Source: a virus. From it: a stretch of 64,000 nucleotides of DNA. Both the position numbers and the translations under genes were made by a program. The notes under the pieces are model-generated. The model had not been told where the DNA came from, made no database searches, and saw only the letters and a program-made list of their open reading frames with translations. Below, piece after piece: positions 3,076 through 44,581 of this stretch (positions are counted from its first letter, which is position 1; the number at the start of each line of letters is the position of its first letter). The stretch is from the IMG/VR virus record IMGVR_UViG_3300025319_000005, positions 1-64,000 of that record, one strand, 5' to 3'.

Positions 3076-3084
3076 AAAAATATT

Positions 3085-3844: not shown

Positions 3845-4264
3845 TTATGATTTGAAGTTGTATTTTAAATCTGTAGCATCAATTAATTTAAAAAATTTTT
3901 CATCAAAAGTTGAACGTCCAAAATATAATTTTTTTTTAGTTGTAAATTCTTTTAACTTTTCAATGTGCTTTATTCCATTTAAAAATTTGATCACTTCCGT
4001 ACGCTTCATTTTAAACTTTCTTTCAAAGCCAATCCATATTAAATCATCAAACCAAAATATATCACCATAGTCTAAATTTGGCTCTCTAATTTCATATTGA
4101 AACAGAATCTTACCAGCCTTAACATAAAAATAAAAGTTTGGATATTCTTCACATGTATTAATTTCACATCCTTCCAAAAACGAAAGAAAAAACACTTCCA
4201 TATCATTTTTTAGTGAGAATTTTTCAGTTAGTACTTTCCGAGTTATGGACAATTTTACTTTCAT
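3845..4264 (-). CDS. family E paralog without array (FFLSF family)
   Basis: 139 aa. Shares the N-terminal layout of the array-linked family: V-x-L-S-I-TRKVLTEKF, then EVFFLSFLEGCEI, then FYVKAGKILFQ and a W/F-rich centre. Its C-terminal tail no longer shows the 22-residue repeat pattern and no 36-bp repeats follow it, so it is either an ancestral form or one that has lost its array. Confidence 0.75.
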   Translation of the reverse strand: MKVKLSITRKVLTEKFSLKNDMEVFFLSFLEGCEINTCEEYPNFYFYVKAGKILFQYEIREPNLDYGDIFWFDDLIWIGFERKFKMKRTEVIKFLNGIKHIEKLKEFTTKKKLYFGRSTFDEKFFKLIDATDLKYNFKS

Positions 4265-8607: not shown

Positions 8608-8626
8608 TACTTTGTGTTTATTTGTT

Positions 8627-8666
8627 TTATAATGTACTATACAAAATTTAAATGACAGGTGTTACA
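8627..8666 (-). promoter_or_regulatory. conserved phage promoter (sigma operon)
   Basis: Full match to the 40-bp element. Drives 8607-6960, including the sigma factor itself. Confidence 0.85.
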
Positions 8667-8671
8667 AAATA

Positions 8672-25955: not shown

Positions 25956-26288
25956 TTATCTATAATATCGTAATGCGTGTGCGGCAAATAAAAATTGATT
26001 CCCTTCTTTATCTTCAATTCCACATATTAATTCTCCTGTAATATCATGAAGAGATCTTGAAAAAACTTCAAATTCCAACAATTTTCTATCTACATATTCT
26101 CCATATAAACCATAAGTAAAATAGTGTCTTTTTGTTGGTTCTCTAAACTCCATTTCATGAAATTTAACATTATAAGTTGAATAATGAAATCCAGAATTTG
26201 TAATATTTACAACATCTCCTATGTTTATCAATGTATATTTCTCTACGAGAACCCGGCGTGTTAATTTGTTTTTTTCAACAATTTCCAT
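25956..26288 (-). CDS. family G paralog 1 with R-x-V-L-x-E-K motif
   Basis: One of three tandem paralogs: MEIVEKNKLTRRVLVEKY, then a G-D/A-V-V-x-V strand, YxxYxxKFxEMxF, an EFExFSxS turn, and ICGIEDKEGNQFLF near the C-terminus. Start chosen at the Met just before EIVEK, as in the neighbouring copy. Function unknown. Confidence 0.7.
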   Translation of the reverse strand: MEIVEKNKLTRRVLVEKYTLINIGDVVNITNSGFHYSTYNVKFHEMEFREPTKRHYFTYGLYGEYVDRKLLEFEVFSRSLHDITGELICGIEDKEGNQFLFAAHALRYYR

Positions 26289-26289
26289 G

Positions 26290-26625
26290 CTATTCAATAT
26301 AACTTAATGCGCTTTGGTTAAATAAAAATTGATTTCCTTCTTCATCTTCAATTCCGCACAATAATATATCCTCTCTTTGAAATCCAAGTATATTACTGTG
26401 AAATTCAGATTTAGAAAAAATTTTAAATTCTTTTTTTTTAAAAAATTTGGGTGAAATTCTACCTTGTATTTCACAGTTTTTAAACATCATTTCTTTGAAT
26501 TTTTGTGTATAACTCGCATATCTCTCACCTGGATATTTAACTTTCACTATAGTGCCAATTCCCATAAATTCAAATTTTTCTACGAGAACCCTGCGTGTTA
26601 ATTTTGTCTTTTCAACAATTTCCAT
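26290..26625 (-). CDS. family G paralog 2 with R-x-V-L-x-E-K motif
   Basis: MEIVEKTKLTRRVLVEKFEF, GIGTIVKVKYPGERY, then LCGIEDEEGNQFLF. The N-terminal 20 residues are nearly identical to those of paralog 1, but the middle differs. Confidence 0.7.
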   Translation of the reverse strand: MEIVEKTKLTRRVLVEKFEFMGIGTIVKVKYPGERYASYTQKFKEMMFKNCEIQGRISPKFFKKKEFKIFSKSEFHSNILGFQREDILLCGIEDEEGNQFLFNQSALSYIE

Positions 26626-26629
26626 ATTA

Positions 26630-26944
26630 TTAAATATAACTTAACCCAGTTTGACCAAACAAAAACTGATTCCCTTCCTCATCTTCAATTCCGCAAATTA
26701 ACTCTCCGTTTCTATGGTTAGTAGATTTGGAAAAAATTTCAAATTCTTTATCATAAAAAATTAGTGACGAATAATTTAATCTTGATGCAATCGATTTAAA
26801 ACCCATTTCTATAAATTTAACACGATAATTTGAATAATGCATTCCAGAATGTACAACTTTTACGACAGCTCCAATCCCCATAAATTCAAATTTCTCTATG
26901 AGAACCCGGCGTGTTAATATGGTTTTCTCCTTATCATTCACCAT
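26630..26944 (-). CDS. family G paralog 3 with R-x-V-L-x-E-K motif
   Basis: KTILTRRVLIEKFEFMGIG at the N-terminus and ICGIEDEEGNQFLFGQT at the C-terminus. Overlaps the next gene by 11 bases. The three copies sit head to tail, consistent with recent tandem duplication. Confidence 0.7.
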   Translation of the reverse strand: MVNDKEKTILTRRVLIEKFEFMGIGAVVKVVHSGMHYSNYRVKFIEMGFKSIASRLNYSSLIFYDKEFEIFSKSTNHRNGELICGIEDEEGNQFLFGQTGLSYI

Positions 26945-27239
26945 TTACAACTTTAATAAGTTTAGTGTCGTTATTTCCATAAGTTGAGCCTCTTTCTCCG
27001 CTTTTCTTTGGAGTTAAATCCTTTCTTAGTTCAAATCCATGATAAACCGGATCAACCACACCAAAAGAAACAGAAACAGTAATTTTATCAATTAACATTG
27101 TCCTTATGGTATCATTAATTATATCACCAACTTTATAAATGGCTTTGCTTAAACCATACTCTTGATAAAGAGCTCTCTTAGCCGATTCGTAATCAACATT
27201 AATCTGTTGTAATTTTTTATTATATTCTGCTTCTTCCAT
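26934..27239 (-). CDS. hypothetical protein, 101 aa
   Basis: Helical start (EYNKKLQQINVDYESAKRALYQEYG) followed by a beta segment with VGDIINDTIRTMLIDKITVSV. Resembles small phage proteins that couple a coiled coil to a barrel; no firm family. Confidence 0.65.
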   Translation of the reverse strand: MEEAEYNKKLQQINVDYESAKRALYQEYGLSKAIYKVGDIINDTIRTMLIDKITVSVSFGVVDPVYHGFELRKDLTPKKSGERGSTYGNNDTKLIKVVNGE

Positions 27240-27241
27240 TT

Positions 27242-27421
27242 TTAACTAATTAAAATTATTCCTGCTATTAAAATATATAATCCTTGTAACCACATTGGGA
27301 TGAAACAGGTTGGAGTATCCTCATTAATAGTGAAAATGTTATAACCGAACACAATCCAAAGTAAATGAATTATAAATCCTACAAAAGGAATGAATGGTGA
27401 ATAATAAAGTAATTTTTTCAT
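27242..27421 (-). CDS. small two-helix membrane protein
   Basis: 59 aa: MKKLLYYSPFIPFVGFIIHL and LQGLYILIAGIILIS are both strongly hydrophobic. Too short to recognise a family. Fills the gap behind 27239. Confidence 0.6.
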   Translation of the reverse strand: MKKLLYYSPFIPFVGFIIHLLWIVFGYNIFTINEDTPTCFIPMWLQGLYILIAGIILIS

Positions 27422-27470
27422 GTTTTAATTTTTCTATTTTATGTGTAAATGATTTAAAGCAAATTCTAAA

Positions 27471-27653
27471 TCATCGTACAAATACTAATTTATAGCTCAT
27501 TACCTTCGGTACAGAAACATATTTATTATCAGGACCGGAAACGACAATTTTCTCTCCATATCTCCTTTTATGTTCTGCTTTAAGTGCAAGTATGATTTTT
27601 TTAACCAATTCCTTATCTAAAGGCTTTGGCTCAGTATTTTCAGGATTTTCCAT
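27471..27653 (-). CDS. hypothetical protein, 60 aa
   Basis: Acidic N-terminus, a Lys-rich helix (KELVKKIILALKAEHKRR) and a C-terminal beta pair. After its stop another frame continues YDDLEFALNHLHIK, so a small indel near 27471 may have shortened it. First gene after the promoter at 27664. Confidence 0.6.
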   Translation of the reverse strand: MENPENTEPKPLDKELVKKIILALKAEHKRRYGEKIVVSGPDNKYVSVPKVMSYKLVFVR

Positions 27654-27663
27654 GGTATTTGGT

Positions 27664-27703
27664 TTATAATGTACTATACAAATTAAAATCGAGAGGTGTT
27701 ACA
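27664..27703 (-). promoter_or_regulatory. conserved phage promoter
   Basis: 40-bp element; drives 27653 and probably the genes down to 25055. Confidence 0.85.
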
Positions 27704-27704
27704 A

Positions 27705-28013
27705 TTATTTCTTCTTTGCAGGTTTTTTCTTCTTTAATTTTGCATCTATTTCACTTGAGGTCATATATAAATAAATTCGCCTTACAAATTCACCATGTCG
27801 CACTTGTCCGTGTTTATCTACTGGACAAGTCAAATCAATTAGTCTTGATATTAAATCCCTATCTTGATTTTTTAAAGCTATCTTATTGTATTTATCCATC
27901 TTATCGCCCAACTTAACTGATAAGGCTTCAAATACTGCATAAGCATCTGCCACCGCATTTACTTGTGAAATGATACTGGCTTCCGTTTTTTTAGATAGTT
28001 TCATAGTTTTCAT
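27705..28013 (-). CDS. hypothetical protein with Lys-rich tail
   Basis: About 102 aa from MKTMKLSKK; helical, ends KKKKPAKKK, so nucleic-acid or membrane-surface contact is possible. Unknown. Confidence 0.65.
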   Translation of the reverse strand: MKTMKLSKKTEASIISQVNAVADAYAVFEALSVKLGDKMDKYNKIALKNQDRDLISRLIDLTCPVDKHGQVRHGEFVRRIYLYMTSSEIDAKLKKKKPAKKK

Positions 28014-28020
28014 TTTATTG

Positions 28021-28287
28021 TTAAGCATGTCGTTTTTGATTTTTAGAAGGAGTTTTAGAATTTTCAGTTAAAAATTGCTCCAACTCATTAAGTAGTTCAT
28101 CACAATCGCATTTGTCTGATAATGCATCGTCTAATTCTTTCTGAGCATATTTTTCATCCTCGTCACTCTCTGGCTCTGCCAATGTTTTTATAAAAGGCAT
28201 AGTTGTTTCATCAAGCTCAGTATTGAGCTCTTCTCTTTTGTTTTTAATAAACGAAAGAATTTCTTCGTGCAAGTCTTCTACTTCCAT
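28021..28287 (-). CDS. hypothetical acidic helical protein
   Basis: 88 aa, very acidic middle (EPESDEDEKYAQKELDDALSD) with a CDCDE cluster. Unknown. Confidence 0.65.
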   Translation of the reverse strand: MEVEDLHEEILSFIKNKREELNTELDETTMPFIKTLAEPESDEDEKYAQKELDDALSDKCDCDELLNELEQFLTENSKTPSKNQKRHA

Positions 28288-28299
28288 ATTTTTAGGATT

Positions 28300-28623
28300 T
28301 TATAGTGCTTCAAATTTTTTAATCCACTCTGCTTGTCTTTTCCTATCAACCTCATCTATACCATCTTTGTCAAGCGTCAATAATTCTTCAAGAGTATATC
28401 TTAATTTTCCATTTTTTTCGTCAATTTTGCATTGACATACAGACACTTCAATCGCTTCTTCAATACTCCTCGGATTTAAAGCTTGCAGTGTAGGTTCATA
28501 CTTGCCGGTTTTCTTATTAAAATAAGTCAAACCTTTTTCCCAAACAATTTGACGCTCAGCATTAAGCTTTATCCAAAGCTGCCGGTCAGATTCTGAATTA
28601 AAAAGTGATTTCTCTGTTTCCAT
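28300..28623 (-). CDS. hypothetical protein with start codon inside its promoter
   Basis: 107 aa, Trp- and Glu-rich. The only Met upstream, at 28623, is the ATG inside the promoter's final CATTATG. If transcription starts about 7 nt past the GTATAG box, this mRNA would be leaderless or nearly so. Confidence 0.65.
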   Translation of the reverse strand: METEKSLFNSESDRQLWIKLNAERQIVWEKGLTYFNKKTGKYEPTLQALNPRSIEEAIEVSVCQCKIDEKNGKLRYTLEELLTLDKDGIDEVDRKRQAEWIKKFEAL

Positions 28624-28659
28624 AATGTACTATACGAAAAATTAATATCAGGTGTTACA
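28620..28659 (-). promoter_or_regulatory. conserved phage promoter overlapping a start codon
   Basis: TGTAACACCTGATATTAA, then GTATAGTACATTATG, whose last three bases are the start of the gene at 28623. Last copy before the promoter-poor paralog region. Confidence 0.8.
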
Positions 28660-28661
28660 AA

Positions 28662-29087
28662 TCACTTAAAGTATATTTTTTTTGCCACTTTACCAAATGA
28701 TTTTTGTACTATACAAGATGTATAATCAGATATCAAGCCAACTTCTAATTCATCTAAATAAATACCGAATAGTAAACAAACATTTTCAACTTTAAAATTT
28801 TTATTAATAAGATTTTTTATAAAAGTTTGTATCTGCATATTTGATATTAAATATTTTTCTTTAAACATAAGCCATACTAAATTATATCTAACTCTAAAAA
28901 TATTTGGGACACATTCATATGTAAATAATATTTTATCATTTTTCAAATAAAAAATAGAGCCTGGATATGAATCTAATATTTTAATATCACATCCATCAAG
29001 AATTGAAAGAAAAAAATATTCTATTTCATTCTGAATAGAATATTTTTCAAACAATACTTTCCTAGTTATATGTAATTCTATTTTCAA
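28662..29087 (-). CDS. family E paralog (array-less)
   Basis: 141 aa. LHITRKVLFEKYSIQNEIEYFFLSILDGCDIKI and F-Y-L-KNDKILF match the family E N-terminus. The tail NKNFKVENVCLLFGIYLDELEVG keeps only a trace of the 22-residue periodicity; no DNA-level repeats follow. Ends against the promoter at 28620. Confidence 0.75.
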   Translation of the reverse strand: MKIELHITRKVLFEKYSIQNEIEYFFLSILDGCDIKILDSYPGSIFYLKNDKILFTYECVPNIFRVRYNLVWLMFKEKYLISNMQIQTFIKNLINKNFKVENVCLLFGIYLDELEVGLISDYTSCIVQKSFGKVAKKIYFK

Positions 29088-29089
29088 TA

Positions 29090-29413
29090 TTAAATGCCAC
29101 TTAAATTTTTAAATTTTGTTATCTCTGCCCAGTTATTTTCATCTAAATAATACTTTAAAGCTCTATTTTCCGTGTATTTTTCAACCAACACTCTACGGGT
29201 TTCTTTTCTCATTTGCTCTTTAAGACGTTGAGTATTATAGAATTCCTCATCTTTTCGCCAATATCCATATACACAGTAATCACAAGCACATTCATCATAT
29301 CGTTCTTTTGTACATGAAATAGCACTTATGCCATAACGTTTACCTTTTTTCATTTTATGAATTCCAAGGAAGCATAAAATCCTTCCTATTATTTGCAATA
29401 ATCTATTCATCAT
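29090..29413 (-). CDS. family C zinc-knuckle paralog 1
   Basis: First of six tandem genes sharing: a hydrophobic start with C-F-x-G-I/Y-H, KGK-x-Y/W, R-x-D-x-C-x-x-C, a W/Y-x-x-D segment, then ETRRVLVEKY. The two Cys plus upstream Cys/His could form one zinc site. Here the metal cluster is CACDYC. Confidence 0.7.
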   Translation of the reverse strand: MMNRLLQIIGRILCFLGIHKMKKGKRYGISAISCTKERYDECACDYCVYGYWRKDEEFYNTQRLKEQMRKETRRVLVEKYTENRALKYYLDENNWAEITKFKNLSGI

Positions 29414-29780
29414 TTTTCGTAAATGTAACGTTTTCATCAACTATGTAATGAATTCTCAATAACTTCCCATCATCATGCACTGTATTAATACGTTTTAATG
29501 ATTTAACACGATTTTGCTGAAAAACATCAGAATAATCAGATATGTCGTATTTTTCTGGTTTTGATTTTTCTACCAACACTTTCCGGCGCTCTTTATTTAT
29601 TCTTGATTGGAATTTCATTAGATTATATCCATCTTCATCAGGAACCCATTCTGTATAATTAAACTTACCGCGAATACATACATCGTATCTATTATGTTTT
29701 GACCACGCGACACCTTTAAGCTTTTTGTGATAACCAAAAAAACATAAAATTTTGTTATACAAATATACTATTTTTTTCAT
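29403..29780 (-). CDS. family C zinc-knuckle paralog 2
   Basis: MKKIVYLYNKILCFFGYHKKLKG, NRYDVCIRG, EWVPDEDGYNLMKFQSRINKERRKVLVEKSK. The second knuckle Cys is missing, so zinc binding may be lost. The 45-residue tail after the peptide is unique. Confidence 0.7.
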   Translation of the reverse strand: MKKIVYLYNKILCFFGYHKKLKGVAWSKHNRYDVCIRGKFNYTEWVPDEDGYNLMKFQSRINKERRKVLVEKSKPEKYDISDYSDVFQQNRVKSLKRINTVHDDGKLLRIHYIVDENVTFTKNDE

Positions 29781-29788
29781 TATATTTC

Positions 29789-30127
29789 TTAAATTTCGTA
29801 ATGATTCCAAGCTCTATTAATTCCGATTTTTCTTGCAAAACGCCTACTACTTTCTCTTGCTATTTCTTTAAAATCACCATTTATATGTTTGACACTTCGA
29901 CATTCATTATGCATCTTCTCAAATAATACCCGGCGAGTTTCATCTAAAGTCTGTATTTTAAATAACCAAAGTTTATATCCTTTATTGTCTTCTTTATAGC
30001 GAGAATAGGTACAGTTTTTACATACGTCATATCTCATTTCAGCACACCAAGAAATTCCTTTAATCATGTTATGGATACCATGATAACATAAAAACTTGTT
30101 CCAAAATTTATTAAACCGGCTTTTCAT
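29789..30127 (-). CDS. family C zinc-knuckle paralog 3
   Basis: FWNKFLCYHGIHNMIKG, MRYDVCKNC, LWLFKIQTLDETRRVLFEKMHNE. Tail of 35 residues with no counterpart in the other copies. Confidence 0.7.
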   Translation of the reverse strand: MKSRFNKFWNKFLCYHGIHNMIKGISWCAEMRYDVCKNCTYSRYKEDNKGYKLWLFKIQTLDETRRVLFEKMHNECRSVKHINGDFKEIARESSRRFARKIGINRAWNHYEI

Positions 30128-30134
30128 AATCCAA

Positions 30135-30485
30135 TTAAAAATATTCTATTCTATTTGCTGTTTCTTTAAAGGATATTGCTCCAATAGATTTCATCGCTTC
30201 TTTATATTCCAAAAAAGATTTAATATCATCTTTCATTTTAGGAGCCTTTTCAAACAACACTCGTCTTTTCTCTTGAAATAATTTAAGCCTAAATTTTATT
30301 AATTTTGAATGTTCTAAATCAAGAACCCAATAACTAAATTTACAACCCTTACGCTTACAAGCATCATATCTCATATCGTTTGACCAGGTTATACCCTTTA
30401 CAATGTCGTGCTTTTCATAATGACATAAAATCATATAATATAAACTCTTGCCCCAAAGAAATATTTTAAAAAGTAGTTTTATCAT
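30135..30485 (-). CDS. family C zinc-knuckle paralog 4
   Basis: YYMILCHYEKHDIVKG, MRYDACKRKGC (spacing C-x4-C), KFRLKLFQEKRRVLFEKAPK. Tail unique. Hydrophobic N-terminus may be a membrane anchor or a buried helix. Confidence 0.7.
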   Translation of the reverse strand: MIKLLFKIFLWGKSLYYMILCHYEKHDIVKGITWSNDMRYDACKRKGCKFSYWVLDLEHSKLIKFRLKLFQEKRRVLFEKAPKMKDDIKSFLEYKEAMKSIGAISFKETANRIEYF

Positions 30486-30490
30486 GTTTT

Positions 30491-30745
30491 TTAATGATAA
30501 TCAATTTCCCAATCAGGTTCTTTAAATTTTTCAATTAAAACCTTTCTTGTTTCACGCTGTATTTGTTCTTGGTAAAGTATTAAATTATGCCCTTTAATAT
30601 CTAATTTCCAGAACGTTTTACCACATTTTATACATAAATCCTGTCTGGAGTGAATATACCAATAACAACCTTTCTGTATCTTATGAATACCAAAGAAACA
30701 TAAAATATTTTTTATGTTTAATCTATATAAAAAATTGATTCTCAT
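30491..30745 (-). CDS. family C zinc-knuckle paralog 5
   Basis: NILCFFGIHKIQKG, SRQDLCIKC, LILYQEQIQRETRKVLIEKFKEPDW. The shortest copy, ending 10 residues after the peptide, so it shows the minimal domain. Confidence 0.7.
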   Translation of the reverse strand: MRINFLYRLNIKNILCFFGIHKIQKGCYWYIHSRQDLCIKCGKTFWKLDIKGHNLILYQEQIQRETRKVLIEKFKEPDWEIDYH

Positions 30746-30754
30746 ATTTAAAAT

Positions 30755-31084
30755 TTACCAACATATTTCCCATTCAGAACTTTCATTTAAACCTTGCATT
30801 TTTCTTACTTTTCTTAATATTATATCCTCGTTAATTTGTTTTACAAAAACACTTAATGAATTATCGGTTTTTTCAATTAACACTTTCCTGGTTTGCCTTT
30901 GTGCATTCACACTATACCAAAAAACCTCATATCCATCTTTATCAAATACGTATACCGGCATACCACAATGCTTACACATATCTTTTCTTTGAAATTCGCT
31001 ATTCCAAATATAACCTTTTTTAATATTATGTATGTTGAACCAATAGCACTTAATCCAAAGAAAAATATTTCGAATACGTTTCAT
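30755..31084 (-). CDS. family C zinc-knuckle paralog 6
   Basis: IKCYWFNIHNIKKGYIW, RKDMCKHC, VFWYSVNAQRQTRKVLIEKTDN, then a 35-residue tail. Farthest upstream copy of the tandem. Confidence 0.7.
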   Translation of the reverse strand: MKRIRNIFLWIKCYWFNIHNIKKGYIWNSEFQRKDMCKHCGMPVYVFDKDGYEVFWYSVNAQRQTRKVLIEKTDNSLSVFVKQINEDIILRKVRKMQGLNESSEWEICW

Positions 31085-31092
31085 TATATGTT

Positions 31093-31605
31093 TTATATGT
31101 CAAATACAATATTTTCTGGAAAATCTTTTTCTATTAGAGTGTGCAATCCTAAATAATTATACTCTTCCCATTCTGATTGAGCCAATTTTGCACAAGGTGT
31201 ATATTCTTTTAATCTACAATTCTGAAATTCTTTTTCCAATGTTGAATTCGATTCAGTTAAACTTTCATCAAGTCCCTTCCAGCCAATATAAGGCATGTAA
31301 TTATTCAAATTAATGTAGTTATATATTATACTTTTTATAAACTCTTGAATTTCTTTATGAGCCATTTGATACTCTTTTTCAAAAACAAACCAGATCATTT
31401 TATACCTTACATAAAAATTCTTGGTTGCTGTTCCTTGTTGAAAAAATATAAAACCATCCTTTATATAAAAAATATTACCCGGATACATATCAGAAACTTT
31501 AAGCTCACATCCATCCAAAAAAGAAAGAAAAAACCCTTCCATATCACTTTTAATGGAAAACTTCTCCGTAAGGACTTTCCTGGTTATAATTAATTCTACT
31601 TTCAT
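31093..31605 (-). CDS. family E paralog with decayed C-terminal repeats
   Basis: 170 aa. VELIITRKVLTEKFSIKSDMEGFFLSFLDGCELKV and YIKDGFIFFQ define the family. The tail retains INLNNYMP and RLKEYTP about two repeat periods apart, relics of the LETHVKLEGYTP unit, but DNA repeats are no longer recognisable. A second motif-like peptide, HTLIEKD, lies near its C-terminus. Sits directly downstream of array 1. Confidence 0.75.
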   Translation of the reverse strand: MKVELIITRKVLTEKFSIKSDMEGFFLSFLDGCELKVSDMYPGNIFYIKDGFIFFQQGTATKNFYVRYKMIWFVFEKEYQMAHKEIQEFIKSIIYNYINLNNYMPYIGWKGLDESLTESNSTLEKEFQNCRLKEYTPCAKLAQSEWEEYNYLGLHTLIEKDFPENIVFDI

Positions 31606-31624
31606 ATATTTTTAATAAAAATGT

Positions 31625-31921
31625 GGTGTATAGCCTCTAATTTTATATATGTTTCCAACTTACCGCCTTTTTTACCTACAACAGCGTTTGGTGTATAGCC
31701 CTCTAATTTTATATGTGTTTCCAATTGCCACACAATAAGCACCTCATCAACTTGGGTGTATAGCCCTCTAATTTTATATGTGTTTCCAATCAGAAAGGGT
31801 TTTACTTTTTTGTGTAATGGGTGTATAGCCCTCTAATTTTATATGTGTTTCCAATTTAAAAAGGTGTACGGAATCACCAAAGCATGGTGTATAGCCCTCT
31901 AATTTTATATGTGTTTCCAAT
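31625..31921 (-). CRISPR. CRISPR-like array 1: five 36-bp repeats, four spacers
   Basis: Repeats at 31625-31659 (35 bp, terminal and diverged), 31690-31725, 31755-31790, 31820-31855 and 31886-31921; the last four are identical. Spacers are 30, 29, 29 and 30 nt and unrelated to each other. On the minus strand the repeat starts ATTGGAAACACATATA and ends AGGGCTATACACC. The 5'-most repeat encodes the C-terminus of the family E gene at 32199. The two 29-nt spacers break the protein frame, which argues that the array is kept as nucleic acid rather than as protein. Confidence 0.8.
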
Positions 31922-32199
31922 ATATCCTTTATAAACAATTGTGTTTCAGCATAGTTAAGCTCATATTTACTTTCAAAAACTGACCAAATCAAGTCATATT
32001 TAACCCAGAAATACCTATTTTTTAATTCCTGCTGAAATAAAATTAAGTCATTTTTTACATAAAAAACAAAATCCTGATACTTGTCTGAAATTTTAATTTC
32101 ACATCCCTCAAGAAAAGAAAGAAAAAATACATTCATTTCGTGTTTGATGTTAAATTTTTCAAACAACACTTTTCTTGTTATAATTAGTTCTATTTTCAT
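31774..32199 (-). CDS. family E gene fused to array 1
   Basis: 141 aa. IELIITRKVLFEKFNIKHEMNVFFLSFLEGCEIKI, FYVKNDLILFQQ, FWVKYDLIWSVFE, then FIKDI leading straight into LETHIKLEGYTP, the translation of the first array repeat. It then reads one spacer, a second repeat and part of a spacer before a frame shift caused by a 29-nt spacer ends it. The natural protein may end anywhere in the array; the conserved body is residues 1-105. Confidence 0.75.
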   Translation of the reverse strand: MKIELIITRKVLFEKFNIKHEMNVFFLSFLEGCEIKISDKYQDFVFYVKNDLILFQQELKNRYFWVKYDLIWSVFESKYELNYAETQLFIKDILETHIKLEGYTPCFGDSVHLFKLETHIKLEGYTPITQKSKTLSDWKHI

Positions 32200-32387
32200 A
32201 TATTTTTAACAGAATGTGGTGTATAGCCATCATCTAATTTTATATGCGTTTCCGGCTCGTTTTTGGTGTCATAAAAATAAAAATCAGGTGTATAGCCCTC
32301 TATTTTCACATGTGTTTCCAGCCCGTAAGCGTTATTTTTTGTATAAGCTGAAGGTATATAGCCCTCCAACTTTACATGTGTTTCCAA
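32196..32387 (-). CDS. open frame across array 2 (translated repeats)
   Basis: 63 codons that are three array units: L/METHVKLEGYIP and variants separated by 10-residue variable pieces. It has no independent body or plausible start other than a TTG in a repeat. Probably a readthrough segment of the family E gene at 32798, cut off by a stop in one spacer. Confidence 0.25.
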   Translation of the reverse strand: METHVKLEGYIPSAYTKNNAYGLETHVKIEGYTPDFYFYDTKNEPETHIKLDDGYTPHSVKNI

Positions 32388-32520
32388 TCAATTGCTATTT
32401 CTTTTATAAACATCAAACGGTATATAACCATCTGACTTTACGTGTGTTTCCAATTTTGTTGTGACGGCTAAGAGAGCAGCTGAAGGTGTGTAGTCTTCTA
32501 ATTTCACATGTGTTTCCAAC
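32218..32520 (-). CRISPR. CRISPR-like array 2: five repeats, four 30-nt spacers
   Basis: Repeats at 32218-32256 (39 bp, diverged), 32287-32322, 32353-32388, 32419-32454 and 32485-32520, each differing by several bases; all four spacers are exactly 30 nt. The variants keep the reading ETHxKxxxYxP, so protein-level constraint or shared ancestry is visible even as the DNA diverges. The leader-proximal repeat is the C-terminal codons of the gene at 32798. Confidence 0.75.
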
Positions 32521-32798
32521 CTATCTTTTATAAAAGATTGAATATCATTATGGTTAAATTTGTATTTCATTTCAAAAACTGACCAAATTAAGTCATACCT
32601 TACATAAAAATGCCTATTTTTTATTTGCTGTTCGAATAAAATCAAGTCATTTTTTACATAAAAAATTGAATATATATATTTTTTACTTAATTTTATTTCA
32701 CATTCATCCACAAAAGAAAGAAAAAAATCTTCCATTTCGTGTTTTATGTTGAATTTCTCAAAAATAACTTTTCTGGTGATTATTAATTCTACTTTCAT
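32388..32798 (-). CDS. family E gene fused to array 2
   Basis: 136 aa from MKVELIITRKVIFEKFNIKHEMEDFFLSFVDECEI; body as in the other family E genes (FYVKNDLILFEQ, VRYDLIWSVFEMKY). From FIKDR it runs into LETHVKLEDYTP and a second repeat, stopping in the following spacer. An upstream Met at 32819 adds seven residues but overlaps the gene before it. Confidence 0.75.
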   Translation of the reverse strand: MKVELIITRKVIFEKFNIKHEMEDFFLSFVDECEIKLSKKYIYSIFYVKNDLILFEQQIKNRHFYVRYDLIWSVFEMKYKFNHNDIQSFIKDRLETHVKLEDYTPSAALLAVTTKLETHVKSDGYIPFDVYKRNSN

Positions 32799-32800
32799 TT

Positions 32801-33172
32801 TTATCTTACCTTTTGACAATACCTTTCATCATCAGCAAATTTTTCAATTAAAACAACCCTTTTTTCTAAACTGATTTTATAAACCTTTTTTAAATGCAAA
32901 ATTCTCTGCAACGTTTCTTTACTTATTGGATTATAAGAGCTAACATGAAAAGAATCGCAATTTTGGCAATCGTAATAACTACATATATCACCTAATGAAT
33001 CATTGTCCCAATTTATCGTGTAACCTTCTAATCCTGAATTTTCAGATTCTTCCTCCAGCCCATAGTTATTTTTAATATACACATGCCGGTTAAAGATATG
33101 ACATTTTATCCACTGTAGAATTTTTTGAGCTTTAGATTTCATTTGTTGTTTTTTACCAAAAATTCCATTCAT
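32801..33172 (-). CDS. C-terminal R-x-V-L-x-E-K protein with zinc-like cysteines
   Basis: 123 aa from MNGIFGKKQQMKSK. Long relative of family C: W-I-K-C-H-I-F-N-R-H, later CSYYDCQNC, ending SLEKRVVLIEKFADDERY. Function unknown. Confidence 0.65.
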   Translation of the reverse strand: MNGIFGKKQQMKSKAQKILQWIKCHIFNRHVYIKNNYGLEEESENSGLEGYTINWDNDSLGDICSYYDCQNCDSFHVSSYNPISKETLQRILHLKKVYKISLEKRVVLIEKFADDERYCQKVR

Positions 33173-33311
33173 GACCTTTAACAATCCAATTAGGCATAGG
33201 AATGTATTTCTCTATAAGCACTTTTCTTGTATTTTCTGCTATAATTTTTATCTTTTTAGTTGCTTCAATTTCTTTTATTGAGCTATAAAATGGTGAACAT
33301 TTTCTTAACAT
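33153..33311 (-). CDS. small R-x-V-L-x-E-K protein N1
   Basis: 52 aa: MLRKCSPFYSSIKEIEATKK, then AENTRKVLIEKYIPMPNW. One of at least seven very small proteins here in which a charged helix leads to the shared peptide near the C-terminus. Overlaps the next gene's start region by about 20 bases. Confidence 0.65.
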   Translation of the reverse strand: MLRKCSPFYSSIKEIEATKKIKIIAENTRKVLIEKYIPMPNWIVKGHEWNFW

Positions 33312-33332
33312 AGTTTTTTTAATTAGATGAAG

Positions 33333-33509
33333 TTAATTTATATACTTTTCTATTAACACTGTTCTGGTGTTCTCTTTTATAATTTTATTTCTTTCTATAA
33401 ATTCCATAATAAGTCTTTTCTTGAGCCTAAACTCTTCTATGCGTTTCAAAGAGGCTTCTTTGTTTGATTTTCTAAAATCTAACGAATTATAATATGAATT
33501 TTTTCCCAT
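33333..33509 (-). CDS. small R-x-V-L-x-E-K protein N2
   Basis: 58 aa: MGKNSYYNSLDFRKSNKEAS, a basic helix, then KENTRTVLIEKYIN at the very end. Helix plus terminal peptide is the whole protein, so the peptide is likely its functional part. Confidence 0.65.
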   Translation of the reverse strand: MGKNSYYNSLDFRKSNKEASLKRIEEFRLKKRLIMEFIERNKIIKENTRTVLIEKYIN

Positions 33510-33524
33510 TGGATTTCTTATTTT

Positions 33525-33671
33525 TTAACTTTGCATTTTTTCTACCAGAACTTTACGAGTATTCTCTTCTAAAAATTCTTCTCTTAGTTTATTCTTTTTC
33601 CATTTGTATATCTCCGACCTCTTTTGAGCTGCATATTTCTGTTTATCAGGATTATAATTTCTTTGTTTCAT
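33525..33671 (-). CDS. small R-x-V-L-x-E-K protein N3
   Basis: 48 aa: MKQRNYNPDKQKYAAQKRSE, then EENTRKVLVEKMQS. Same layout as N2, one of the shortest carriers of the peptide. Confidence 0.65.
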   Translation of the reverse strand: MKQRNYNPDKQKYAAQKRSEIYKWKKNKLREEFLEENTRKVLVEKMQS

Positions 33672-33682
33672 TTATTTTCTTT

Positions 33683-33844
33683 TTAAAAATAAATTGAAAT
33701 CAATTTCCATTTTTCTATTAGGACTTTACGTGTGTTCTCTTCTATAAATTTTCTCTGAGCATGCCTTTCTTTAGCAATTTTTCTATAATATTCAATATAT
33801 TCATCAAAAGAAATATCAGAAGCGGTTTTAATTCCAGTTTTCAT
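33683..33844 (-). CDS. small R-x-V-L-x-E-K protein N4
   Basis: 53 aa: MKTGIKTASDISFDEYIEYY, then EENTRKVLIEKWKLISIYF. ATG overlaps the stop of the upstream gene. Confidence 0.65.
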   Translation of the reverse strand: MKTGIKTASDISFDEYIEYYRKIAKERHAQRKFIEENTRKVLIEKWKLISIYF

Positions 33845-34062
33845 ATAAATTTAATGTAATTTTTTTTTAATTTAAATTTTTCTATTAAAACCGTTCTCGT
33901 ATTCTCTTCTATGAATTTTTTCTGCTTTTCCTCTGCTTCTTTTTCAAATCTACACTTTTTTAACCATAAATAAGCTTCATCAGCTCTGGTTCTTCGTATC
34001 TGAGCATCGCTTTTTTCATTAGTGAACATGGTTGTAAAATATGCTATTTTTGGCTCTTCCAT
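33841..34062 (-). CDS. small R-x-V-L-x-E-K protein N5
   Basis: 73 aa; RRTRADEAYLWLKKCRFEKEAEEKQ helix, then EENTRTVLIEKFKLKKN. Overlaps the start region of the next gene by about 19 bases, as elsewhere in the block. Confidence 0.65.
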   Translation of the reverse strand: MEEPKIAYFTTMFTNEKSDAQIRRTRADEAYLWLKKCRFEKEAEEKQKKFIEENTRTVLIEKFKLKKNYIKFI

Positions 34063-34457
34063 TTTTCTATAAGGACTTTACGTGTATTTTGAATTTTGTA
34101 CCAGGCTTTCTCATTTGGATAAATTGGAACCCATTCTAATATTTCTCCTTTAAATCTCAAATTCAATTCTCTTTCAGCTACACCCATAAGAAATAAAAAC
34201 TTATTTGTCAATTCTAATAATACAGGTTCATCAATTTCATCATCCCAACGAATAAACTCATAGTGCTTCTTACTAGTTTCAAATATGTACCGGTGATACC
34301 AATAAATATTTGACCAATGTTGTTGTGTTACCTGAGAAAATGGAATTTTAACCCCATCTTTAGTTGTCCAAACTTCCTCAAATACTCCAGCCTCAGTTTC
34401 TTCTAAAAACGGCTTATATTCGAATATCGTCTTTAAATTGTTTTCAACTTTTTCCAT
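34044..34457 (-). CDS. R-x-V-L-x-E-K protein N6, 137 aa
   Basis: Trp/Tyr-rich body (WSNIYWYHRYIFETSKKHYEFIRW) ending IQNTRKVLIEKWKSQK. First gene after the variant promoter at 34472. Unknown domain. Confidence 0.7.
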   Translation of the reverse strand: MEKVENNLKTIFEYKPFLEETEAGVFEEVWTTKDGVKIPFSQVTQQHWSNIYWYHRYIFETSKKHYEFIRWDDEIDEPVLLELTNKFLFLMGVAERELNLRFKGEILEWVPIYPNEKAWYKIQNTRKVLIEKWKSQK

Positions 34458-34471
34458 GACTTAATTCATTG

Positions 34472-34509
34472 TTATATCACTATACGAGAAATAATTGATA
34501 CGTGTTACA
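34472..34509 (-). promoter_or_regulatory. diverged copy of the conserved promoter
   Basis: TGTAACACGTATCAATTATT then CTCGTATAGTGATATAA; two bases shorter in the -10 block. The only copy between 28.7 and 48.9 kb. Confidence 0.6.
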
Positions 34510-34705
34510 ACTTTATTGGTATTCGACACAATTTTAGCAATTTTTGACTCAAATATGTTTTTTCTATTAAAACCCTCCTAATGTATATTATATCTGGCAC
34601 AGTCATCATTGCCCGACCGTACTTAATAATATCAAATGCCTCTTCTTCGCTTATTCTAAAACGAGCCAGCATCTCTTTTATCTCAAAATCATATAGATAC
34701 CTCAT
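34505..34705 (-). CDS. R-x-V-L-x-E-K protein N7
   Basis: 66 aa; helical, MARFRISEEEAFDIIKYG-like body with YIRRVLIEKTYLSQKLL near the C-terminus. Its 3' end overlaps the variant promoter. Confidence 0.6.
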   Translation of the reverse strand: MRYLYDFEIKEMLARFRISEEEAFDIIKYGRAMMTVPDIIYIRRVLIEKTYLSQKLLKLCRIPIKL

Positions 34706-35210
34706 TTTTCTTTGAAAGTTCTTTAAATGATGTTGTAGCTAAATTTAAGCTAGAAGGATGATATTCACCTAAACTTTTAAATTCTATTATTTCTTTAGCA
34801 AGTATAAATGAACCTCTTACCGGCATACAATCATTTTTTATTTCATTTTCCAATATCATCCAATCTTTAGAATTCTTAATAGAACCCATTGAATATGGTG
34901 AATAACCATTAAGTTTTATACTGTTCTTTAGTAAACCTTTTATAAGTATTTGTGTTTTAGCATAGCTAAACCCAAATTTCATTTTAAAAACTGACCATAT
35001 GATGTCATATCTGACATAAAAAAACTTATATTTAATTTGTTGATGAAATAAAATCATATCTTCTTTTACATAAAAATAAAGCTCCGGATATTCTTTACTC
35101 GTTTTAATTTCACATCCTTCGATAAAAGACAGAAAAAACTCTTTTGCACCTTCTGTAGAAGAATATTTCTCGGTTAGGACTTTTCTCGTTATGACTAATT
35201 CTATTTTCAT
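34689..35210 (-). CDS. family E paralog with decayed repeats
   Basis: 173 aa. VITRKVLTEKYSSTEGAKEFFLSFIEGCEI, FYVKEDMILFHQQ, VRYDIIWSVFKM. The tail keeps a faint 22-residue rhythm (SIKLNGYSP, EIKNDCMP, FKSLGEYHP), what an array would look like after long drift in frame. Downstream neighbour of array 3. Confidence 0.75.
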   Translation of the reverse strand: MKIELVITRKVLTEKYSSTEGAKEFFLSFIEGCEIKTSKEYPELYFYVKEDMILFHQQIKYKFFYVRYDIIWSVFKMKFGFSYAKTQILIKGLLKNSIKLNGYSPYSMGSIKNSKDWMILENEIKNDCMPVRGSFILAKEIIEFKSLGEYHPSSLNLATTSFKELSKKNEVSI

Positions 35211-35767
35211 TTATCAAATAAGTTTATAGTGCTCCATAAATCACCAAGTATTACTGGTGTATAACCCTCCAATTTCACATGTGTTTCCAACAAAGATTTA
35301 GGACTAGGAAATACTTCTTTAGGTGTATAACCCTCCAATTTCACATGTGTTTCCAACCAAGCCCAGGATTGTATTGCACCACCAACAGGTGTATAACCCT
35401 CCAATTTCACATGTGTTTCCAACTTTTTTTGCAGAATATTAATTCTCCCAACAGGTGTATAACCCTCCAATTTCACATGTGTTTCCAACCTATCCTTTAT
35501 AAAAGATTGAATATCACTATAGTTAAGTTTATATTTGTTCTCAAAAACTGACCAAATTAAGTCAAATCTCATATAAAAATACTTAATTTTTGTTTCCTGT
35601 TCAAACAAAATCAAGTCATTTTTTACATAAAAAATAAAATTCGGGTATTTTTTACTTAATCTTATTTCACATCCATCAATAAAAGAAAGAAAAAAATCTT
35701 CCATTTCGTGTTCAATGTTAAATTTCTCAAAAATAACTTTTCTGGTTGGAATTAATTCTATATTCAT
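35207..35767 (-). CDS. family E gene fused to array 3
   Basis: 186 aa. IELIPTRKVIFEKFNIEHEMEDFFLSFIDGCEIRL, FYVKNDLILFEQ, MRFDLIWSVFENKY, FIKDR, then four perfect LETHVKLEGYTP units separated by 10-residue variable pieces, ending 15 residues after the last. All spacers are 30 nt, so the array stays open in this frame. The peptide after each repeat is different; whether the tail is made and used as protein is unknown. Confidence 0.75.
   Translation of the reverse strand: MNIELIPTRKVIFEKFNIEHEMEDFFLSFIDGCEIRLSKKYPNFIFYVKNDLILFEQETKIKYFYMRFDLIWSVFENKYKLNYSDIQSFIKDRLETHVKLEGYTPVGRINILQKKLETHVKLEGYTPVGGAIQSWAWLETHVKLEGYTPKEVFPSPKSLLETHVKLEGYTPVILGDLWSTINLFDK
35256..35489 (-). CRISPR. CRISPR-like array 3: four identical 36-bp repeats, three 30-nt spacers
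   Basis: Repeats at 35256-35291, 35322-35357, 35388-35423 and 35454-35489 are base-for-base identical; spacers are exactly 30 nt and unrelated. Minus-strand repeat: begins GTTGGAAACACATGTG, ends TTGGAGGGTTATACACC. The 36+30 geometry, GTTGGAA start, central GGAGGG and A/C-rich end are those of type VI-B (Cas13b) direct repeats in Flavobacteriia and relatives; in that type the array is read in this orientation. No cas gene is in the window. A further spacer-length stretch follows the last repeat. Confidence 0.85.
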
Positions 35768-35803
35768 TTTTATAATACTTAAACGAAAAATCCTGTTATT
35801 TGT

Positions 35804-36019
35804 TCATATTTTGTCTCCTGTTTTCTGTCCAGATTCGTCATTTATTTTATTAAAAACAAGCAACTGGCCATTTATATTAAACCCAAATTCAGAAAAATGA
35901 CAATCATTGCATTGATAAATCTCATGTATTGTTCCTTGGTTTATACATAAACCATTATCTTTCGGTGTAATTTCATAATCACATTGAAAACATATTTTAT
36001 GCCCGGTTTTGTCTTTCAA
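35804..36019 (-). CDS. small zinc-ribbon protein
   Basis: 71 aa with CFQC and CNDC about 30 residues apart, a classic four-Cys ribbon; last 12 residues repeat the theme KTGHK/KTGDK. Lacks the R-x-V-L-x-E-K peptide although surrounded by carriers. Confidence 0.65.
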   Translation of the reverse strand: MKDKTGHKICFQCDYEITPKDNGLCINQGTIHEIYQCNDCHFSEFGFNINGQLLVFNKINDESGQKTGDKI

Positions 36020-36444
36020 TGTTTTATTTTTACCAAATTTAATATTCTCCTATTATTATTTAATGTTCTCCTATTATTCCATGTTCTACATACAAATTCT
36101 CTAAACTCAATATAATTATCCAATTCCTCATAAGAAATATAAAATTCTGATACATCATAAAATATGATTTTTCTCATAGGAATAAATGTTGTCGGGTGAT
36201 AAAGATTTTCACCTATAACATAATTCGTGTTGTTTCCCATCATTGGAGATAGAACTTTACTGGCTATGTAATTAATGCCGTTTATATTTTCTGTTCCCCA
36301 AATACAAGACTTTTGATTTATAACAAACATCTCTTTATAAGCCTTTTTCCATAACTCATAAGAAATAAGCATCAAAAGACCATGCTCTGAAAAATTAGAA
36401 AAGGATAAATACTTTTCAGTTAAAACCCGGCGTGTTAATTTCAT
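36016..36444 (-). CDS. family S paralog 1 with N-terminal motif
   Basis: 142 aa: KLTRRVLTEKYLSFSNF at the N-terminus, then ELWKKAYKEMF and ASKVLSPMMG, shared in outline with four downstream-numbered paralogs. Low-complexity NNRR repeats near the C-terminus. Function unknown. Confidence 0.7.
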   Translation of the reverse strand: MKLTRRVLTEKYLSFSNFSEHGLLMLISYELWKKAYKEMFVINQKSCIWGTENINGINYIASKVLSPMMGNNTNYVIGENLYHPTTFIPMRKIIFYDVSEFYISYEELDNYIEFREFVCRTWNNRRTLNNNRRILNLVKIKH

Positions 36445-36866
36445 TAAAGTATTCGTAAATAATTAACTAATCCAAGTGTATGCAAATAATCAATTACAAG
36501 TGTTCTTAAATTAACACCATTCTTTAAAAAAGAAGAAATATCTTCAGTGTAACAATAAGTTGTAATGTGATAAAATGGATTCAGCTCACCCATATTTTTA
36601 TTTTTTAAAGTTAAAGTTATTATCCTGTTTTCCATGCTATCACCAATTCTATTTAATTCGCTTATGTGATATAAATCAATTTTTTGTCCAGTAACAGGAC
36701 AAATAATTTTTGAAACAATGAATACAATCCGTTCTAAATTATTTTTATTCTCAATTCTTTTAAACGTAATATCCCATAATTTATCCGGAACATCTTCTAT
36801 GTTCGTATATCTCCAAAATGGCGAGGATTTCTCTATCAGGACTTTACGAGTTAAAGTATTGCTCAT
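36444..36866 (-). CDS. family S paralog 2
   Basis: 140 aa from MSNTLTRKVLIEKSSPFWRY; VPDKLW, VSKIICPVTG. A longer frame from 36917 would overlap the neighbour. Shares SSPFWRY directly after the peptide with two other copies. Confidence 0.7.
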   Translation of the reverse strand: MSNTLTRKVLIEKSSPFWRYTNIEDVPDKLWDITFKRIENKNNLERIVFIVSKIICPVTGQKIDLYHISELNRIGDSMENRIITLTLKNKNMGELNPFYHITTYCYTEDISSFLKNGVNLRTLVIDYLHTLGLVNYLRIL

Positions 36867-36879
36867 CTTGTATTTTCCA

Positions 36880-37284
36880 TTAAGATGTTTTGTGCTTGTT
36901 CCTCCAGAATATGTCAATAATATCTCTTAAAAATTCACCAGTTGAAAAATCAGATACCATTGTGTTTAACGTTGAAAATGGCATGTTAAAATAATAGTGG
37001 TTGAAAATTATCTTTCTTTTGCTATCAGAAAGTGATAAATATAACATTTCTACTTCTGAAATTGTAAAATCCTTTTCATGCATTAGTGGCGATAAAATTT
37101 CATAAGCCAGGTATTCTATTATTTTATCCGCTCTTTGAGATTCTACTACAGTATCCGATATTTTAAGCATAGAATCTCTAACCTTATTCCAGATATGCTC
37201 CGGAACCTCAAGTGGGAAATTGTATTTCCAAAAAGGTGAGGATTTTTCTGTCAAAACTCGACGTGTTAAACTTTGATGTTCCAT
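36880..37284 (-). CDS. family S paralog 3
   Basis: 134 aa: SLTRRVLTEKSSPFWKYNFP, VPEHIWNKV, YLAYEILSPLMHEKDFTIS. The conserved I-L/I-x-P-L/M-x element after a helix is typical of this family. Confidence 0.7.
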   Translation of the reverse strand: MEHQSLTRRVLTEKSSPFWKYNFPLEVPEHIWNKVRDSMLKISDTVVESQRADKIIEYLAYEILSPLMHEKDFTISEVEMLYLSLSDSKRKIIFNHYYFNMPFSTLNTMVSDFSTGEFLRDIIDIFWRNKHKTS

Positions 37285-37307
37285 TTAAATCATTAAATTA
37301 CAATTGT

Positions 37308-37541
37308 TTAGCTCAACATTACATTACTACATTCTATACATAATCCCATGTCAGGATTATTAGGATAGTCTTTTTCATATCCTATTTTCGTAAACGTCTT
37401 TTCTCCACAACAATCACAAGAAGTTAAACATTCACTCACAAACATACTACCTGAAATCCTAATATGATAACCTTTCTTTTTTAATGTACCTATAGAGCTG
37501 CCTTTTTCTATTAAAACATGACGTGTTAATGTGTTGTTCAT
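37308..37541 (-). CDS. family D zinc protein 1
   Basis: 77 aa: NTLTRHVLIEKGSSIG, LKKKGY, then CDCC, KIGYE, DMGLCIEC. Two CxxC knuckles around K-I-G-Y-E; paralogous to 38399. Confidence 0.7.
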   Translation of the reverse strand: MNNTLTRHVLIEKGSSIGTLKKKGYHIRISGSMFVSECLTSCDCCGEKTFTKIGYEKDYPNNPDMGLCIECSNVMLS

Positions 37542-37960
37542 GTTATTTCTCTCCTTAAAAATTTTGAACTACATTTCATTGAATATTCCCACAGTATCTC
37601 AATAGTTTCTTTTAACATAAAAGAACTCTGATAGTGACGCTTATTACATAACAAATTCATAGACACTTCAAAATAACAATCGTTGTCGAAAATTATATCC
37701 CTATAAGAATAAGCGAAATTGTTATTTACGAATTTTATAGGTGAAATAGTAAAATCCTCTTTTATGAGCGGTGATAGAATTTGACCGGCAATGTAGTGTA
37801 TTAATTTATCAGCTATTTTTGTTTCACCCGTATCATTAAACATGTCTTGAATTATATTAAAATGCTTCAGCCACAATTTCTCTGGAACCAAACTTGGATT
37901 CGGATATCTCCAAAAATGTGAGGATTTCTCTATCAGGACTTTACGAGTTAAAGTGTTCAT
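37538..37960 (-). CDS. family S paralog 4
   Basis: 140 aa from MNTLTRKVLIEKSSHFWRYPNP; VPEKLWLKHF, AGQILSPLIKEDFTIS. Four-base overlap with the zinc gene that follows. Confidence 0.7.
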   Translation of the reverse strand: MNTLTRKVLIEKSSHFWRYPNPSLVPEKLWLKHFNIIQDMFNDTGETKIADKLIHYIAGQILSPLIKEDFTISPIKFVNNNFAYSYRDIIFDNDCYFEVSMNLLCNKRHYQSSFMLKETIEILWEYSMKCSSKFLRREIT

Positions 37961-37961
37961 G

Positions 37962-38399
37962 TTATTTTCCATTTAAAATATATTCTATATTATACTTTAA
38001 TCCAATGTAACTATATATATCTGATAAGTCTACTAATGTTTCACGCTCAACTTTTAACGACTTTATTTTTCTATTGATTCCAGCAAACTCTATTAAATGA
38101 TGTGCCGGACGAATCATAGTTGTGGGTCGTATATTTGGATGTTTTGTTGTTGTTATTGCATAAGGAACATAAGTTATATTGTAATTTCTCATTTTTAGCA
38201 TAGGAGATATGATTTTTTCTATAACGAATTCCAATACTATGATACCATTATTTAAATTTCCTTTACTGGCTAAAATTTCAAAATTAAGTTCTTCTGCGAC
38301 TTTTATCCACATAATCCAAGGCACGTCATCCACATTTGAATAACGCTCGAAAAGTGAGGATTTCTCTGTAAGGACTTTCCTGGTTAAAATATTATTCAT
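37962..38399 (-). CDS. family S paralog 5
   Basis: 145 aa: NNILTRKVLTEKSSLFERYSNVDDVP, ASKGN, VIEKIISPMLKMRNYNI. Most diverged copy of the five. Confidence 0.7.
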   Translation of the reverse strand: MNNILTRKVLTEKSSLFERYSNVDDVPWIMWIKVAEELNFEILASKGNLNNGIIVLEFVIEKIISPMLKMRNYNITYVPYAITTTKHPNIRPTTMIRPAHHLIEFAGINRKIKSLKVERETLVDLSDIYSYIGLKYNIEYILNGK

Positions 38400-44029: not shown

Positions 44030-44581
44030 TTATTTGATTTGTAAAAAATTTGTGAGCACTGGATGGTCAAGGTTTGGTTTTACCAATTTTAGATGTGCGT
44101 TAGATAAACGACCCATTCTCCATTTACCAGCACCAGGTGTATAGTCCTTAAGTTTTATATTTGTTTCCGATATGTTTACACCATTACCAGAAGATGTATT
44201 TGGCGTGTATCCATTCAAATTTATAAGTGTTTCCAACGTTTGTGCCGCATTGGCGATTGGAATTATTGGTGTATATTCATCCAATCTTATATGTGTTTCT
44301 AATACGTCTTTTATAAACGACTGAGTTTTAGAATAACTAAATTTATATTTGTCCTCAAAAACCGACCAAATTAGATCGAATCTCACATAAAAATACCTGT
44401 TTTCTGTTTCCTGTTGAAATAATAATAAGTCATTTTTCACATAAAAAATATAATGTGGATGTTTGTCTGAAATTTTTAATTCACACCCCTCTATAAAAGA
44501 CAGGAAGAAATCCTCCATTTCGTGTTTGATGTGAAATTTCTCAAATAGGACTTTCCGAGTTATGGATAGGGTCGTTATCAT
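44030..44581 (-). CDS. family E gene fused to decayed array 4
   Basis: 183 aa. LSITRKVLFEKFHIKHEMEDFFLSFIEGCELKI, FYVKNDLLLFQQ, VRFDLIWSVFEDKY, FIKDV, then LETHIRLDEYTP, LETLINLNGYTP, SETNIKLKDYTP and a fourth, SNAHLKLVKPN. All in frame at 22-residue spacing, but the DNA repeats have diverged strongly. An isolated copy 9 kb from the other family members. Confidence 0.75.
   Translation of the reverse strand: MITTLSITRKVLFEKFHIKHEMEDFFLSFIEGCELKISDKHPHYIFYVKNDLLLFQQETENRYFYVRFDLIWSVFEDKYKFSYSKTQSFIKDVLETHIRLDEYTPIIPIANAAQTLETLINLNGYTPNTSSGNGVNISETNIKLKDYTPGAGKWRMGRLSNAHLKLVKPNLDHPVLTNFLQIK
44071..44303 (-). CRISPR. CRISPR-like array 4, degenerate
   Basis: Diverged repeats at 44136-44171, 44202-44237 and 44268-44303 with exactly 30-nt spacers, plus a very degenerate fourth at about 44071-44106. 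66-bp periodicity is strict. Substitutions fall so that E-T, K/N-L and Y-T-P survive in translation, the signature of a relic array retained as protein. Confidence 0.6.

Follow-up and report, generated by a model that had tools for sequence, protein, structure and literature searches.

CRISPR-like arrays without cas genes joined to the 3′ ends of duplicated phage genes and probably supplied with spacers by the host

The Sulfolobales viruses SPV1 and SPV2 carry cas-less mini-arrays of clustered regularly interspaced short palindromic repeats (CRISPR) that are supplied by their hosts, lie between genes, hold one or two spacers, and copy host repeats and leaders; these arrays show leaders, spacer turnover, and dependence on host Cas proteins (Medvedeva 2019, PMC6858448). 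Arrays lacking cas1 and cas2 are also described from huge phages (Al-Shayeb 2020, PMC7162821), and solitary repeat units occur on phages, although the survey of these units contained no type VI representatives (PMC10651486). In Flavobacterium columnare, a type VI-B array is adapted in trans by the Cas1 of a II-C system (PMC8092290). Here we describe arrays in the virus record IMGVR_UViG_3300025319_000005 of IMG/VR, which has 212,632 bases (G000) and of which bases 1-64000 form the window. The record holds five arrays, A1-A5. Each is joined to a gene of the same paralogous family, which we call family E, at the gene's 3′ end. We regard it as very probable that CRISPR-type spacer insertion on a phage produced these arrays, and we put at roughly 0.7 the probability that they are cas-less, phage-borne arrays fed in trans by a host, probably one of the Bacteroidota; in this view, the end of the gene acts as their leader and first repeat.

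In all five arrays, the family E gene is transcribed first and the array last, and we number the repeats R1, R2, and so on from the gene end. A1 consists of four identical 36-mers, ATTGGAAACACATATAAAATTAGAGGGCTATACACC, with periods of 66, 65, and 65 nucleotides (nt), followed by a degenerate R5 of 35 nt that carries substitutions and one deletion. Its spacers are 30, 29, 29, and 30 nt long, and coordinates and alignment agree with a preliminary description of this stretch made from the sequence alone. That description also listed A2 as five diverged repeats with 30-nt spacers, which is what we observe: four diverged 36-nt repeats lie at 66-nt spacing, every spacer is 30 nt, and R5, whose boundaries were set by eye, is 39 nt long because of a 3-nt insertion. 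It further counted at least 11 spacers within 4 kb, and A1, A2, and A3 together do hold 11 within 3.9 kb. Absent from it were A4, which lies in the window, and A5, which lies elsewhere in the record at G000:199294 and has a 36-nt repeat different from those of the other arrays.

A profile of family E matched contigs from the IMG/VR samples 3300025164, 3300025319, and 3300025289, and a search with the repeat pattern gave the same contigs. One of them, G001, overlaps the record and has A5 in common with it, and the set contributes three more arrays, B1-B3. Contig G002 carries B1 (repeat CCTTTTAGACAGTTTAAATTCTAAAGGGTATAAAAC) and B2 (repeat CCTTGAAGAGGGTCTAAAATCTAACGGTTATAAAAC, four copies plus a degenerate fifth), and B3 (repeat CCTTGAAGATGGTCTAAAATCTAACGGTTATAAAAC, four copies) is common to G003, G004, and G005. 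Relatives with the same gene family thus have arrays with other repeats and other spacers, and no spacer recurs across contigs apart from shared contigs. The preliminary description held that identical units between the repeats of related phages would speak against CRISPR arrays; this was not what we found, as the three related contigs differ in repeats and in all spacers.

The organization of these arrays is that of CRISPR arrays. Exact, sharply bounded copies of a 36-nt repeat are present in A1, A3, A5, and B1-B3, within the 23-50 nt typical of near-identical direct repeats in such arrays, and A2 and A4 are decayed. Inside A1, A3, and A5, the repeats are identical base for base, synonymous sites included. 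The 25 spacers of A1-A5 and B1-B3 are unique and of near-constant length (29-32 nt), and they are mutually unrelated, being alike on average at 8 of about 30 positions, which is the chance level. Repeats arising by chance can be ruled out: a search for the A3 repeat allowing three mismatches gave 4 matches against 0.00 expected (100 shuffles), and spaced repeats occupied 13 genome bins, whereas all ten order-1 Markov controls had 0.

The arrays are also polar. Degeneration of the leader-distal terminal repeat, reported earlier for A1, is seen again in A5, B1, and B2, and in all four the single deviant repeat is the gene-distal one (fifth of five in A1, fourth of four in A5, third of three in B1, and fifth of five in B2), for which the odds are 1 in 300 by simple counting if its position were random. 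In A5, R4 is identical to the intact B3 repeat of a relative at 34 of 36 positions, compared with 25 of 36 for its own R1-R3. Thus, the first repeat would have changed and the newer copies would have followed it, while the oldest unit retained the older sequence, and this is the expected trace of insertion beside a leader. Because A5 has preserved this change of repeat, the order in which the array evolved can be read from it directly.

An alternative explanation is a protein tandem repeat, with units of 22 residues, 12 of them constant and 10 variable, that together make up a variable C-terminal tail. The repeats begin in frames 0, 0, 2, and 1 in A1, where the 29-nt spacers move the later repeats to frames 2 and 1, in frames 0 and 2 in B1, and in frames 0, 1, 1, and 2 in both B2 and B3, so that none of these four arrays keeps the single frame of a protein tandem repeat. 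Because 29- and 31-nt spacers shift repeats out of the gene frame, an in-frame protein repeat cannot explain the whole set, and we do not accept it as a complete account. The odd spacer lengths are in general unlikely to stem from sequencing errors, since 29- and 31-nt spacers recur in independent relatives and B3 is identical across three assemblies; A1 itself is known from one assembly only. The earlier conclusion that a purely protein-repeat explanation fails therefore stands for A1 and B1-B3, but the protein aspect is partly real: R1 is coding, the gene's frame runs without a stop through the whole of A3, A4, and A5, and when the coding frame of the preceding repeat is extended into each spacer, 24 of the 25 are open, compared with 11 and 19 for the remaining sense frames and 16-18 for the antisense frames. 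Stops within repeats, and repeats identical at synonymous sites beside unrelated linkers, nevertheless make a protein tandem repeat very improbable. An ordinary 23-residue protein repeat (ETNLERYGV...) in a relative, at G002:C1:850-1250, shows the opposite pattern, as its DNA is diverged, its linkers are conserved, and its frame is kept.

Family E is a paralogous protein family with the N-terminal sequence TRKVLxEK, and its genes in the window are listed in Table 1 with the arrays and their putative leaders. In a predicted family E structure with a mean predicted local distance difference test score of 84.6, R1 lies at the end of the last long helix, so R1 is native coding sequence. The repeat of each array matches R1 of its own gene, and the position of R1 is homologous in diverged paralogues. 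Nothing convincing was found for family E in Pfam, in PHROGs, or in a PDB fold search; three uncharacterized proteins of uncultured phages match it at E < 0.001, and it was not found in a phage collection or, in a search without a positive control, in 395 Bacteroidota genomes. In the family E gene tree, A5, B2, and B3 form a fully supported group; the tree lacks resolution elsewhere, so that array gain and loss cannot be dated.

This relationship between repeat and gene bears on two further explanations. If the arrays descended from a host CRISPR array, or from that of another phage, recombined into family E, the weak likeness of the repeats to type VI repeats, usually better on the transcribed strand, would be accounted for. 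We consider such a descent quite unlikely, as the repeat belongs to family E's own C-terminal helix segment and differs by paralogue; the gene tree does not decide whether arrays were gained or lost. Alternatively, the arrays may be accidents or adaptation sinks, in which the host Cas1-Cas2 integrates spacers wrongly at the end of a gene because this end looks like its leader-repeat junction, and no CRISPR RNA (crRNA) function follows. The coding nature of R1 at a homologous position, the existence of paralogues without arrays, and the identity of each array repeat with its own gene's R1 would all fit such accidents. We nonetheless hold them unlikely, as the presence of at least eight loci together with reduced synonymous change beside the array suggests maintenance, and decayed arrays are kept. 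The synonymous change, in a comparison based on three genes, drops toward the array in two gene pairs (P = 0.001 and 0.003) and gives P = 0.18 in the third, and the last 45 nt ahead of R1 are similar between the A and B lineages. A function of the DNA itself or recent recombination could underlie these two features, and the lowered synonymous change only suggests a leader role.

Table 1. Arrays, family E genes, and putative leaders in the window
Feature	Coordinates	Strand	Details
Array A1	31625..31921	-	R1 31886-31921, R2 31820-31855, R3 31755-31790, R4 31690-31725, R5 31625-31659
Array A2 (decayed)	32218..32520	-	R1 32485-32520, R2 32419-32454, R3 32353-32388, R4 32287-32322, R5 32218-32256
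Array A3	35256..35489	-	four perfect 36-mers GTTGGAAACACATGTGAAATTGGAGGGTTATACACC, period 66, three 30-nt spacers
Array A4 (decayed)	44136..44303	-	R1 44268-44303, R2 44202-44237, R3 44136-44171; 30-nt spacers
Family E gene carrying A1	31774..32199	-	reading frame terminates within R3, past the first 29-nt spacer
Family E gene carrying A2	32388..32798	-	stop at end of spacer 2
Family E gene carrying A3	35207..35767	-	186 amino acids, open across full array
Family E gene carrying A4	44030..44581	-	open through array
Family E paralogue without array	34689..35210	-	weak R1-like segment near 34898-34922 (E = 2.1)
Family E paralogue without array	31093..31605	-	
Family E paralogue without array	28662..29087	-	
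Family E paralogue without array	3845..4264	-	
Putative leader of A1	31922..31966	-	coding DNA just upstream of R1
Putative leader of A2	32521..32565	-	
Putative leader of A3	35490..35534	-	

The first part of another family E paralogue, with 89% identity to the A5 gene, lies at G001:C1:19127-19264, at the contig end that extends past the end of G000. Across the genome, 35 sites encode the peptide TRxVL[IFTV]EK (sites include window 1661-4243, 26238-38384, and 44537-44560, and G000 115972, 171699, and 199013). The proteins that contain it are small and differ in the rest of their sequence; the peptide has no fixed position in them, and its codons vary. The reversed control gave 1 match, and the peptide looks like a protein-level tag. 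Separately, an element of about 40 nt is dispersed over 23 places in the window (e.g., 5820-5861, 8626-8667, and 63571-63612; minus strand TTGTAACACC...TATAGTACATTATAA) and is probably a phage promoter. A tyrosine recombinase is encoded at 9998-10855, and the 56 proteins of at least 250 amino acids in the record include a phenylalanyl-tRNA synthetase-like protein, thymidylate synthase, ribonucleotide reductase, and several methyltransferases.

The spacers have a mean G+C content of 37%, compared with 29% for the genome (P = 2e-4), and none of them matches elsewhere in the genome better than shuffled controls do, so we take their origin to be foreign. Targets in related phages likewise did not rise above the shuffled level, and targeting of the phage itself or of its relatives was rejected on these grounds. 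Searches of phages and plasmids with spacers tried singly returned chance-level matches only, and exact scans of viral contigs for four spacers matched only the arrays themselves.

A search of the 212.6-kb record found no Cas1, and thus adaptation would have to come from the host. PADLOC gave no Cas match for the ten largest unannotated proteins, and no Cas family is among the matches listed for the 56 larger proteins mentioned above, so that small or divergent Cas proteins may have escaped notice. No Cas13 effector was detected in the same genome, whose largest open reading frame encodes 861 amino acids, so the effector would also have to come from the host. No cas genes were found with the arrays; cas-less viral arrays do not require them. 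The host is probably a Bacteroidota bacterium: Shine-Dalgarno-like motifs stand before 3 of 192 start codons, compared with 30 of 192 inside genes (window 1-64000 plus L019-L026), and rarity of these motifs fits such a host. Two Bacteroidota genomes have Cas13a scores above the cut-off. In both, an array of 36-nt repeats and 30-nt spacers lies next to Cas13a, and the only Cas1 match sits elsewhere, away from Cas13a. The Bacteroidota metagenome-assembled genome L057 has an array of the same geometry with a very similar repeat, and Cas13a was not found in it. A Cas13d search of 148 Bacteroidota returned nothing, and no positive control responded.

The geometry of the phage arrays equals that of these Bacteroidota Cas13a arrays, although it is not specific to type VI. 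In the transcribed orientation, the A5 repeat compared with the L057 repeat gives z = 4.8-4.9 without an exact match, and, as leads only, B1 gives z = 5.7 with a Leptotrichia repeat and A3 gives z = 5.1 with a VI-B repeat; several further reference repeats in the comparison likewise serve as leads only. Because the z scores come from single-base shuffles of AT-rich sequences and other CRISPR types score about 3-4.5, the type VI signal is modest. The repeats of B1 and A5 can form stems of 9 and 5 base pairs, respectively, and Rfam gave no match across 28-45 kb. Type VI, with a Cas13-type effector, is our best guess and not an assignment.

Repeats that mimic those of a host could also act as RNA decoys, with phage crRNAs occupying the host effector in the manner of RNA anti-CRISPRs (Racrs) and spacer content being incidental. 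Repeats on a phage without cas genes are what such decoys would look like, Racrs are known for most types (PMC10651486), and surplus first-repeat crRNA sequesters Cas13b and thereby weakens defense (PMC13187072). Three to five repeats with distinct foreign spacers, however, exceed the needs of a decoy, the repeats vary strongly among paralogues and from known type VI repeats, and the A1/A3 repeat type is unstructured; decoys are, in our estimate, a rather unlikely account.

We favor trans-fed arrays, for which the following sequence of events can be proposed. Arrays would be built at the 3′ ends of the duplicated family E genes, where the end of the coding sequence would act as leader and first repeat. 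A host integrase of the Cas1-Cas2 type, acting in trans, would copy the 36-nt R1 and place a foreign spacer of about 30 nt at the gene-proximal end, older units would drift or decay distally, and several arrays would by now be decaying. The array would probably be transcribed as the tail of the gene's messenger RNA, and the crRNAs may be loaded by a host effector, with a Cas13-type enzyme as best guess, leading either to attack on competing mobile elements or to occupation of the effector. The arrays may exclude competitors, serve as decoys, or be accidents. A more far-reaching proposal, that CRISPR arrays are born and kept inside coding phage genes, with the gene's 3′ end as leader and first repeat, each paralogue making its own repeat, and the host Cas1-Cas2 inserting the spacers, is possible, but we hold it with more doubt than belief.

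Several findings weigh against trans-fed arrays. Instead of a non-coding leader, the DNA upstream of each array is the coding end of family E, which is unusual, and the synonymous comparison that might reveal a leader there is small. The A1 and A3 repeats form no stable hairpin and fold no better than shuffles. A single pattern scan, limited to repeats of the A1/A3 type, found no host array carrying the phage repeats, and no convincing protospacer was found among the spacers searched, environmental targets being poorly covered. The nearly complete openness of the spacers in the coding frame hints at some protein-level constraint. The earlier CRISPR reading thus holds for the organization of the arrays, with identical 36-nt repeats, unrelated 29-32-nt spacers, a degenerate distal repeat, and frame breaks; it does not extend to working arrays, as no Cas gene, host array, or protospacer was found.

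If this view of the arrays is correct, they would reveal one way in which ordinary coding sequence gives rise to CRISPR arrays, would place records of adaptive immunity inside phage genes, and could include type VI-like phage arrays, a type without solitary repeat units in a large survey (PMC10651486). We found no earlier description of arrays that sit at the 3′ ends of duplicated genes and have a different repeat in each paralogue; the known viral mini-arrays are intergenic (PMC6858448). Like the SPV1 and SPV2 mini-arrays, those described here are cas-less and virus-borne, but they hold up to four spacers, occupy coding 3′ ends, and have no host match found (PMC6858448). They share with the huge-phage arrays a large phage genome, compact arrays, and a lack of adaptation genes, whereas a position within one duplicated gene family, with a repeat for each paralogue, is, as far as we found, not described there (PMC7162821). 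With RNA anti-CRISPRs and solitary repeat units they have in common CRISPR-like repeats borne by a phage without cas genes, and they differ in being multi-spacer arrays (PMC10651486). The Bacteroidota type VI-A (Cas13a) arrays L060/L063, L064/L065, and L057 likewise have 36-nt repeats and 30-nt spacers, whereas the phage is without Cas13 and its repeat sequence and hairpin differ. Finally, the VI-B system of Flavobacterium columnare, which is host chromosomal and in this respect unlike the phage arrays, provides a precedent for adaptation in trans in a member of the Bacteroidota, and does so with 36-bp repeats (PMC8092290).
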